From Pantanalinema sp. (GTDB taxonomy: Bacteria; Cyanobacteriota; Sericytochromatia; S15B-MN24; UBA4093): a stretch of DNA of 64,000 nucleotides. A program made the translations under genes and the position numbers. Numbering within the stretch: the stretch's first letter is position 1; every line of letters begins with the position of its first letter. Below are positions 18,265 to 25,032 of this stretch, piece by piece. The notes under the pieces are model-generated. The model was not told the origin of the DNA and did no database searches. It saw only the letters and a program-made list of their open reading frames with translations. The DNA lies in assembly GCA_036704125.1 (NCBI GenBank), contig DATNQI010000036.1, forward strand, positions 1 through 64,000. Reading direction: 5' to 3'.

Positions 18265-18312
18265 TTGACAATTAATCTACGTAGAACTAAAATTCAAATT
18301 AGTTCTACGTAG
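18265..18312 (+). promoter_or_regulatory. Promoter with perfect 14-bp palindromic operator (site 1, MarR autoregulation)
   Basis: A canonical promoter, TTGACA (18265-18270), 17 bases, TAAAAT (18288-18293), is overlaid by a perfect inverted repeat. CTACGTAGAACTAA (18277-18290) pairs with TTAGTTCTACGTAG (18299-18312) across 8 bases. The operator begins inside the spacer and covers the -10, so binding would block RNA polymerase. It lies 37 bases before the MarR start. Very similar sites occur at 24986-25032 and, degenerate, at 22782-22828. Confidence 0.85.
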
Positions 18313-18348
18313 GATTTTTCCTGAAAGCATCGCTCGGAGACCCCCGCC

Positions 18349-18816
18349 GTGAGAGACCCCCGCTACCCCGTTTCCCAGGACGTCTCGCTCTTGCCCGTGC
18401 ACCGTGCCTTGCACGCCTGCGTTCAGCAGTCGGGGCGCGTGATGACGCGCTTCGTCGAGGCGCGGGGATTGACGTCCTCCCAGTTCGACGTCCTGGCCAC
18501 TCTGGGGGACACGGCGGGCATGACCTTCAAGGAGCTCAGCCTGCGATCGATGGTCACCGGCGGGACGCTCACGCCGGTCCTGAACCGCATGGAGGCCAAG
18601 GGCCTCGTCGCGCGCTGCAAGGGCGAGCAGGACAGCCGCCAGACCCTCGTGCGCCTGACGCCCGAGGGCCAGGCCCTCTACGAAGAGACCTTCTTGCCCT
18701 TCATCGACTTTGCGCAGGGCTACCTGGACCGCCTCACCCCTGATGAGCAGACGCAGCTGAGCGCCCTGCTGGACAAGCTCGCTTGCGCCTTTTGCGAGGA
18801 GAACACCCATGACTAG
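18349..18816 (+). CDS. MarR-family regulator, MhqR-like
   Basis: A 155-residue winged-helix repressor. The recognition helix region is GLTSSQFDVLATLGD...FKELSLRSMVTGGTLTPVLNRMEAKGLVARCKGEQDSRQTLVRLTPEG, with the wing DSRQTLV. Cys residues occur at 20 (LHACVQ), in VARCKGE and near the C-terminus, and could sense electrophiles. It overlaps the downstream dioxygenase gene by 8 bases. The same type of palindrome controls a second dioxygenase gene and a dioxygenase-pathway remnant plus esterase, a gene set like that of MhqR of Bacillus (catechol/quinone response). The MhqR-like assignment is inference; the MarR call is firm. Confidence 0.88.
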   Translation: MRDPRYPVSQDVSLLPVHRALHACVQQSGRVMTRFVEARGLTSSQFDVLATLGDTAGMTFKELSLRSMVTGGTLTPVLNRMEAKGLVARCKGEQDSRQTLVRLTPEGQALYEETFLPFIDFAQGYLDRLTPDEQTQLSALLDKLACAFCEENTHD

Positions 18817-19633
18817 CCCCACGACCCGGATGCCGACCCTTTACATCCCGCACGGCGGCGGTCCGTGCTTCTTCATGGACCCCATGCCCGGCGCTCCCGC
18901 CGACATGTGGGAATCGATGGCGGCCTACCTGCGCGGCATCGCCTCCGCCGTCGGCGTCCGGCCGAAGGCGGTGCTCGTGATCTCGGGTCACTGGGAGGTC
19001 GAGCGCCCGACGCTCAACGTGGCCCCGAAGCCGGAGCTGCTCTACGACTACTACGGCTTTCCCGAGCACACCTACCGCCTGAAGTATCCCGCCCCCGGCT
19101 CGCCCGAGGTGGCCGCGCGCGTGCGCGAGCTGCTCGCCGCAAGCGGCATCGAGTCGGGCGAGGATGCCACGCGCGGTCTGGACCACGGCGTCTTCGTGCC
19201 CTTCATGCTGATCTATCCCGAGGCGGACGTCCCGATCGTGCAGCTCTCGCTCCAGGCGAACCTCGATGCGGCCGATCACCTCGCGATCGGCCGGGCGCTC
19301 GCGCCGCTGCGGGACGAGGGCGTGCTCATCGTCGGCAGCGGCATGAGCTACCACAACCTGCGGGCCTTCTTCGGCGAGCAACCGGAGGCCAACCGCCTCG
19401 CCGAGGCCTTCGACGACTGGCTCAACGACGCGCTCGGCGATCCGTCCCGGGCCTCGCGCGACGCAAAGCTTTCGAGCTGGCACCTGGCGCCGGGGGGACG
19501 CTTCTCCCACCCCCGTCCGGAGCACCTCATCCCGCTGATGGTGGCCGCGGGCGCCGCGGGGGACGACCCCGCCTCGCGCACCTACAACGACCGGTTGTTC
19601 GGCAAGGCGGTCTCGGGCTTCCAGTTCGGATGA
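18809..19633 (+). CDS. LigB-type (DODA family) extradiol dioxygenase
   Basis: A 274-residue class III ring-cleavage dioxygenase-like protein of the DODA/YgiD branch. Putative metal ligands and active-site His: PHGGG (near 15), SGHWE (near 59), LDHGVFVP and SHPRPEHL. The segments YDYYGFPEHTYRLKYPAPGSPEVA and GSGMSYHNL are family marks. It should open catechol-type rings using Fe(II) or Zn. Start: ATG 18809, or ATG 18830 seven codons later; the overlap with marR favours 18809 by coupling. A paralogue lies at 24160-24942 under the same kind of operator. Confidence 0.85.
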   Translation: MTSPTTRMPTLYIPHGGGPCFFMDPMPGAPADMWESMAAYLRGIASAVGVRPKAVLVISGHWEVERPTLNVAPKPELLYDYYGFPEHTYRLKYPAPGSPEVAARVRELLAASGIESGEDATRGLDHGVFVPFMLIYPEADVPIVQLSLQANLDAADHLAIGRALAPLRDEGVLIVGSGMSYHNLRAFFGEQPEANRLAEAFDDWLNDALGDPSRASRDAKLSSWHLAPGGRFSHPRPEHLIPLMVAAGAAGDDPASRTYNDRLFGKAVSGFQFG

Positions 19634-19671
19634 GCCACCCTCCTTCCCCTCGCCTCCGTCTGCCTTCTCGC

Positions 19672-19705
19672 GCCGCCAGCCCACCGGGCTGGCGGCATTT
19701 CTCTT
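19672..19705 (+). terminator. Rho-independent terminator after the marR-dioxygenase operon
   Basis: GCCGCCAGCCC (19672-19682), loop ACC, then GGGCTGGCGGC (19686-19696), a perfect 11-bp stem, followed by ATTTCTCTTT. Confidence 0.85.
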
Positions 19706-19726
19706 TCGTGGTCGATCGAAATTTAC

Positions 19727-23946: not shown

Positions 23947-23999
23947 TCGCGTCGGCGCTGAGCTAGCCGGTCGGTGTGAAACGATACGTCCGCTTGATT

Positions 24000-24122
24000 C
24001 CCCGCCCCCCGGTGGGGCGGGGCTAGGGGTGGGGGGATCAAAACGTTCCAGGTCCCTCACGAAGGCAAGAGGAACTTGATCGTATCCCCCCACCCCCGAC
24101 CCCGCCCCACCGGGGGGCGGGG
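24000..24122. repeat. Long GC-rich inverted repeat between esterase and dioxygenase genes
   Basis: A left arm (24000-24041), starting CCCCGCCCCCCGGTGGGG, is nearly the reverse complement of the right arm (24076-24122), with a 34-base loop and small internal gaps (TTGAT then CGTA then TCCCCCC). It could form a roughly 40-bp cruciform or a bidirectional terminator for the convergent genes at 23946 and 24160. Elements of this C-rich style recur as intergenic repeats in some genomes; only one copy was noticed here. Confidence 0.75.
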
Positions 24123-24159
24123 AGAACTCAGGCAGATGTTTGATTCAGGCAATACGTGC

Positions 24160-24942
24160 CTAGGCGAAGGAATAGGCCGCCATGCTGAGGAGCCCCCAGC
24201 TGTAGCTCTCGTGGATCAGCTCGCCGGTGCCCTGCGCTTCGCCCGCCCCGGCCGCCACGAACAGCGGCAGGATGTGGTCCGGGGTGGGGTGGTTCCGCGC
24301 GGCGCTCGGCGCCTGGTGGAGGTAATCGAGCAGCTCCTCCTTCCGGCCCTGGGTCACCGCCGATTTCAGCCAGCGATCGAAGGAGGTGACCCACTCGGGC
24401 GGCGTGGTGTCGTGCATGTAGCGACCCAGCTCGAAGAGGTTGTGGGTGGCGGACCCGCTGCCGAGCACCAGGATCCCCTCGTCGCGCAGGGGTCTGAGGG
24501 CTTCGCCCAGGCGCCAGTGCTCGGCGGGGCTCCGGGACGGCTGGATCGAGAGCTGCACGACCGGGATGTCGGCCGCCGGGTACATGAGCTGCAGGGGGAT
24601 CCAGGCTCCGTGATCCAGCCCGCGGCTCGGATTCAGCGCGGCGGGGAAGCCCGCGGCCACGAGCTGCTCGGCGACTCGCTCGGCGAGCTCGGGCGATCCC
24701 GGGGCGGGGTACGTCATCCGGTAGAGGGCGTCGGGGAAGCCGCCGAAGTCGTGGATCGTCGCGGGCTGCGCGGCGAGACTCAGCGTGGGCGCGCCGGTCT
24801 CCCAGTGGGCCGAGATCGCGAGGATCGCCTTCGGCCTGCCGATACGCTCGCCCAGGCCCGCGAGGAAGTCGTGCGCCGGGATCCGATCGATCGCGATGGT
24901 CGGGGCGCCGTGGGAAACGAACAGAGCGGGGAACCTGGTCAT
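24160..24942 (-). CDS. 4,5-DOPA dioxygenase-type extradiol dioxygenase (YgiD-like)
   Basis: A 260-residue LigB-family dioxygenase, the same length as E. coli YgiD (DODA). Active-site His candidates: VSHGAP, ISAHWET, LDHGAWIPL and NHPTPDHIL. Characteristic blocks are IHDFGGFP and YRMTYPAPGSPELA. The ATG at 24942 is preferred because AGGAGG precedes it by 6 bases. It is driven by the promoter/operator at 24986-25032. It is a divergent paralogue of the protein at 18809-19633 and probably cleaves catechol-like rings. Confidence 0.88.
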   Translation of the reverse strand: MTRFPALFVSHGAPTIAIDRIPAHDFLAGLGERIGRPKAILAISAHWETGAPTLSLAAQPATIHDFGGFPDALYRMTYPAPGSPELAERVAEQLVAAGFPAALNPSRGLDHGAWIPLQLMYPAADIPVVQLSIQPSRSPAEHWRLGEALRPLRDEGILVLGSGSATHNLFELGRYMHDTTPPEWVTSFDRWLKSAVTQGRKEELLDYLHQAPSAARNHPTPDHILPLFVAAGAGEAQGTGELIHESYSWGLLSMAAYSFA

Positions 24943-24985
24943 TGGGGCCTCCTGGCGGCCGCGAATGCGTCCGGTCAATATAGTC

Positions 24986-25032
24986 CTATCTCGAACTATT
25001 TGAGTATAGTTCTACGTAGTATTAATTGTCAA
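24986..25032 (-). promoter_or_regulatory. Promoter with MarR-type palindrome (site 2)
   Basis: On the minus strand TTGACA (25032-25027), 18 bases, TATACT (25008-25003), the first 12 bases after the start, TTGACAATTAAT, being identical to site 1. The operator arms are CTACGTAGAACTAT (25019-25006) and ATAGTTCGAGATAG (24999-24986), separated by 6 bases. The second arm read on the plus strand, CTATCTCGAACTAT, contains the TATCTCGAA half-site known for Bacillus MhqR. The dioxygenase ATG is about 44 bases downstream. Confidence 0.8.

Follow-up and report, generated by a model that had tools for sequence, protein, structure and literature searches.

Aromatic breakdown and tolerance genes of Pantanalinema sp., a member of the Sericytochromatia, appear to be under one predicted MarR-type repressor, with twin sites at each of six promoters. 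The window analyzed here is a stretch of 64,000 nt from this organism (GCA_036704125.1, contig DATNQI010000036.1, positions 1-64,000), and the genome-wide counts were obtained by pattern searches over the 3.51-Mb assembly. The sequence points to a probable MarR regulon that is autoregulated and directed at catechol/quinone-type compounds, and we consider the explanation as a whole, i.e., an autoregulating MarR, paired operators at six promoters, and an aromatic inducer, to be likely. This type of system is already known; the recognition sequence and the gene set seem new to description, and the literature searched, with partial coverage, contained no description of the operator or of the YceI/MarR pairing. 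The prediction provides an operator and a target list for a MarR clade found in at least three phyla and placed outside all the curated regulator models tested, and brings LigB/DODA-like dioxygenases, pirin/quercetinase, and YceI under one predicted regulator. It is also a regulon prediction for the Sericytochromatia, the non-photosynthetic cyanobacterial cousins, represented here by metagenome assemblies only.

The marR gene (18349-18816, plus strand) encodes a 155-aa MarR-family winged helix protein, recognized by solved-structure matches and by domain scores of 46.2 bits for PF01047 and 46.0 bits for PF12802, both exceeding the cutoff. It shares 8 bases with the frame of ligB1 (18809-19633, plus strand), whose start overlaps the marR stop and whose product is a class III extradiol (4,5-DOPA-like) dioxygenase (PF02900; 156 bits to NF007914). 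The second dioxygenase gene, ligB2 (24160-24942, minus strand), encodes a DODA/YgiD-like protein 42% identical to LigB1. The LigB domain scored 125.1 and 160.2 bits in the two proteins, against a PF02900 cutoff of 26.3, and both contain the histidines of HGGG/HGAP, GHW/AHW, and PEHL/PDHI, with an equivalence to YgiD assigned by eye; we assume that the metal-binding positions are those of YgiD. Between the dioxygenase genes lies an esterase of the Abhydrolase_2 (phospholipase/carboxylesterase) family (23299-23946, plus strand; PF02230, GFSQG motif), preceded by the N-terminal remnant of an HpaH/MhpD-type hydratase with a tautomerase tail (22889-23227, tail readable to 23282, plus strand; profile matches). 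In this remnant, about 85 aa of the hydratase N-terminus are followed, in another frame, by the C-terminal half of a 4-oxalocrotonate tautomerase, and the junction is due either to an internal deletion or to misassembly. A ClpB/ClpC-like ATPase gene with a McsA-like cysteine-rich N-terminus (19808-22357) sits between two regulon units. It was rejected as a member of the marR operon because it is preceded by a hairpin resembling a terminator (19672-19696) and by a promoter-like site of its own (TTGACA-18-TATGAT, 19727-19756, inside ATTTAC...GTAAAT arms), and the operator is absent.

Three promoters precede these units, and all three carry the sites reported in the first-pass annotation, each on a promoter with a TTGACA-like -35; as it had proposed, they stand before marR-ligB1, the hydratase remnant with the esterase, and ligB2. 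P1 (TTGACA-17-TAAAAT, 18265-18293, plus strand, a promoter-like sequence) would drive marR-ligB1, and holds operator 1 within its -35/-10 spacer (18271-18290, 12.1 bits with the held-out matrix described below) and operator 2 over the expected transcription start (18299-18318, 7.0 bits, the weakest, belonging to repeat family D2). P2 (TTGACT-17-TACCCT, 22782-22810, plus strand), which has a weak -10 and was called from its sequence plus the genome pattern, carries operators at 22788-22807 (19.5 bits) and 22815-22834 (15.8 bits), so that site 2 is longer than first described and spans 22788-22834. P3 (TTGACA-18-TATACT, 25003-25032, minus strand, a promoter-like sequence) precedes ligB2, with operator 1 at 25006-25025 (12.7 bits) and operator 2, the strongest, at 24980-24999 (20.2 bits). 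The latter includes TATCTCGAA at 24987-24995, which had been placed in site 2 and actually lies in site 3. Sites 1 and 3 are on strong sigma-70-like promoters, and the only promoter-like sites in the 7.2-kb region were P1, P3, and that of the Clp gene, with 0.3 expected.

Each arm of a site is a complete putative MarR operator, about GTYCTANNNNGRAC, and there are hence two per promoter. To score them, a symmetric 20-bp matrix was made from 20 sites upstream of MarR homologues from Proteobacteria and Nitrospirota only, the window being held out. When the 64 kb were scanned with this matrix, the six arms took ranks 1-5 and 7, with scores of 20.2, 19.5, 15.8, 12.7, 12.1, and 7.0 bits, while the maxima of shuffled sequences had a mean of 7.3 and a largest value of 16.0. 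Since a foreign matrix ranks the arms in this way, an arm is best read as one predicted MarR operator, and a site as an operator pair. The layout was the same in the three promoters (-35, operator 1, -10, operator 2): operator 1 begins immediately after the -35, its GRAC end precedes the -10, and operator 2 lies over the expected transcription start. In addition, CCTACGTAGAACTA gave 7 window matches with up to 3 mismatches, against 0.8 expected, and none of 100 shuffles reached 7. In the 3.51 Mb, the core CTACGTAGAAC has three copies, all within the three sites, and GAACWA-N4..12-TWGTTC was found genome-wide in the three sites and in two GC-rich places without promoter geometry.

The arms had originally been taken as halves of one palindrome, and the arms of site 1 (18277-18312) do pair perfectly over 14 bp as an inverted repeat around an 8-bp loop. 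That each site is a single long palindrome bound as one unit is nevertheless very improbable, and we rejected this reading because the spacing varies, from 28 bp centre to centre at P1 to 27 bp at P2, 26 bp at P3, and 20-21 bp in L025, L113, L083, and L085, and because every arm fits the one-dimer operators of relatives: for many of the MarR homologues gathered from class members and named genomes, the marR promoter contains just one arm-like palindrome (e.g., GTTCTAATGCGAAC, GTTCTAATTCGAAC, and GTTCTAATTAGAAC). A pseudo-palindromic operator of 14-20 bp is present in the promoter of the window marR itself, and likewise in homologues. Even less probability, close to none, was given to site 1 being a mere terminator of the upstream AlkZ-like gene that resembles the other sites by chance. 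Its RNA fold of -19.7 kcal/mol (z -5.6) with ATTTTT next to it would suit a terminator; however, the stem is AT-rich, the fold of site 3 is barely above shuffles (z -1.5), and all sites match the matrix from other phyla at fixed promoter positions. Matrix matches, folding, and promoter overlap led us to reject a site 1 that is only a terminator.

The operator pairs extend beyond the three sites to which the regulon had been limited. The pattern TTGAC-N14/15-GRACTA gave exactly six matches in 3.51 Mb, all of them double-operator promoters, with the second operator 26-28 bp downstream in every case; the backward control gave three matches. As the pattern was composed after several of these promoters were known, its informative part is the zero other matches in the genome. 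Besides P1-P3, the set contains three promoters of the same architecture. One of them (C11:13278-13329, L133) is followed by a pirin/quercetinase gene (YhhW-like; 271.9 bits to the solved quercetin 2,3-dioxygenase/YhhW) and by an HxlR-family regulator gene with a weak RrpB match, and the other two stand ahead of yceI genes (C90:60195-60240, L149; C29:690-744, L006). The C29 yceI promoter adjoins the gene of a second MarR, about 50% identical to the window MarR, which has its own single operator-like site. Motif matches on C70, C82, C49, C68, and C96 showed neither a double site nor the -35 geometry and were taken as chance. A lone operator-like GGTTCTAGATAGGAC (C65:1777-1792, L136) was observed about 20 bp upstream of a FUSC-family (aromatic acid exporter-like) gene, a possible seventh regulon member.

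Among 17 relatives, TTGAC-N14/15-GRACTA was no commoner than its backward control, and the only recognizable operator promoters were in G001 (C35, ahead of yceI) and G005 (C370). The six-promoter set is therefore peculiar to the window genome, whereas the operator itself is more widespread. Of the matches outside the training sites in 57 homologue loci (591 kb), 14 reached 17 bits, and 13 of these fell at a marR promoter, next to it at a yceI, or 1.8 kb further upstream, where a cytb561-yceI-yceI-marR operon begins. Operators near dioxygenase genes, whose absence from related genomes would have counted against the first-pass reading, were found in relatives: ligB is directly behind the operator in two other Sericytochromatia genomes, G003 and G005, the operator being doubled in G005. 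Moreover, four proteobacterial loci (L041, L044, L047, and L057) have marR, cytochrome b561, two yceI genes, a GST gene, and ligB co-directional downstream of one operator, and in L041, L047, and L057 the next frame is that of an Abhydrolase_2-type esterase. Domains were checked in L057, whose esterase is 28% identical to that of the window and belongs to the same broad family. Collectively, operators and conservation support the set that had been predicted as MarR-autoregulated, including both LigB-type dioxygenases and the esterase. The esterase homologue of G003 has no operator, and the nearest relative, G001, gave neither a ligB nor an esterase match. In other class members, marR is partnered with doxX or yceI, and in Undibacterium, the operator lies at the head of cytb561-yceI-yceI-marR.

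In the tree, the window MarR groups with Sericytochromatia homologues (support 100/98), and operator presence is strongly clustered, with 9 changes compared with 20.8 in shuffles. The operator is not universal in the wider MarR clade, because its Nitrospira members gave no matrix match. At the corresponding promoter position, several of these Nitrospira loci without the operator (L046, L048-L050, L062, L065-L067, and L072) share another motif, GGATGACTAGTCT or a similar sequence.

As both operators overlap the promoter core, we infer steric repression and autoregulation. The 155-aa MarR would act as an autoregulating repressor that binds as a dimer to the 14-20-bp pseudo-palindrome GTYCTANNNNGRAC; with operator 1 filling the -35/-10 spacer and operator 2 covering the transcription start, two bound dimers would keep RNA polymerase out. 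Release of the repressor by a small aromatic inducer, most likely a catechol, a quinone, or a related electrophile, would then switch on the three window units (marR-ligB1, the one with the esterase, and ligB2), along with the pirin/quercetinase-HxlR pair and the two yceI genes. The targets (ring-opening dioxygenases, a quercetinase-type pirin, an esterase, and YceI, with the GST, DoxX, and cytochrome b561 of relatives) fit catechol/quinone detoxification, and the catechol/quinone signal, proposed from gene content, is plausible. As for thiol sensing, no conserved cysteine favouring it was found among 67 MarR homologues: Cys24 of the window MarR is present in 21 of the 67, and in the window MarR, Phe60 occupies the position of the commoner cysteine of the clade (37 of 67). 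YceI proteins are isoprenoid-binding proteins. A broader and rather doubtful proposal is that the MarR clade with GTYCTANNNNGRAC, widespread in Cyanobacteriota, Nitrospirota, and Pseudomonadota, couples membrane quinone chemistry to cytosolic ring cleavage as a sensor of oxidised or leaking quinones, of which the six twin-operator promoters would be an expansion; if this were true, YceI, cytochrome b561, and DoxX would be the membrane side, and LigB and pirin/quercetinase the cytosolic side.

The main rival to an electrophile signal keeps the same regulon and makes the inducer a phenolic growth substrate, in a catabolic role like that of HpaR or PcaV; it has this rank because the P2 unit holds what is left of a meta-cleavage hydratase and tautomerase, to which the LigB-type extradiol enzymes can be added. 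HpaR, the repressor of the homoprotocatechuate operon, shares with the window system the MarR family and the aromatic ring-cleavage genes, and is the best NCBIfam model for the window MarR, although far under the cutoff of this equivalog (TIGR02337, 58.5 vs. 121.2 bits). Unlike the HpaR system, the locus has no full pathway or intact catabolic operon, and YceI and pirin here, as well as GST, DoxX, and cytochrome b561 in relatives, better suit detoxification, so that a catabolic inducer is unlikely. We also consider it improbable, to a similar degree, that the paralogous C29 MarR, or both proteins, run the window sites, the adjacent marR not being their sole regulator. For this homologue, an operator of the same type is present both at its own promoter and at that of yceI, and it could bind some of the sites; however, the window marR is adjacent to the sites, P1 precedes marR itself, and the operator is also found at the marR promoter of Sericytochromatia with one detected homologue (L018). 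The preferred reading is still that of the window MarR as the autoregulating repressor of these promoters.

The proposed system works like that of Bacillus MhqR, yet it is not MhqR, because the two differ in operator, in the class of the dioxygenases, in esterase subfamily, and in the sequence of the regulator. MhqR of Bacillus subtilis and Staphylococcus aureus is a quinone-sensing repressor of mhqRED/mhqNOP (PMC6798810, PMC12893000). The predicted system resembles it in having a MarR-type autoregulator, an operator over the transcription start, and control of ring-cleavage dioxygenase and Abhydrolase_2-type esterase genes. The MhqR operator is a 9-9 bp TATCTCGAA-aTCGAaATA, whereas that of the window is a paired GTYCTANNNNGRAC. 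In agreement with the earlier view that the two operators are unlike, this 18-bp sequence gave no match in the window with up to 3 mismatches; the link to MhqR drawn from TATCTCGAA is not supported, and this half is also found once elsewhere in the window. The MhqE/MhqO/MhqA dioxygenases have a glyoxalase fold, and both window dioxygenases are of LigB class III (PF02900). The esterase, described before as MhqD-like, scored 22.4 bits with the MhqD model NF047577, far under the cutoff of 325. SaMhqR (9QDR) was a mid-list solved-structure match to the window MarR, with 34.5 bits compared with 55.7 for E. coli MarR, and was outscored by MarR, YusO, OhrR, and others. The window regulon also differs in including pirin and YceI.

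Also comparable to the window system are the MarR proteins of Betaproteobacteria, Thiomonas, and Undibacterium with cytb561-yceI(-GST-ligB-esterase), which share its clade and operator and have overlapping genes; these mostly have one operator and one operon, in contrast to the six double-operator promoters of the window genome. YgiD/DODA 4,5-DOPA extradiol dioxygenases are of the same LigB superfamily as LigB1 and LigB2, and LigB2 scored 245 and 192 bits against the solved DODA and YgiD; both window proteins fell short of the curated cutoff set for the E. coli-type equivalog model. In a Dehalococcoidia locus (L089:6001-9463), marR, a glyoxalase-fold dioxygenase-superfamily gene, an Abhydrolase_2 esterase gene, and a yceI match were observed consecutively, an MhqR-like gene order outside Firmicutes.
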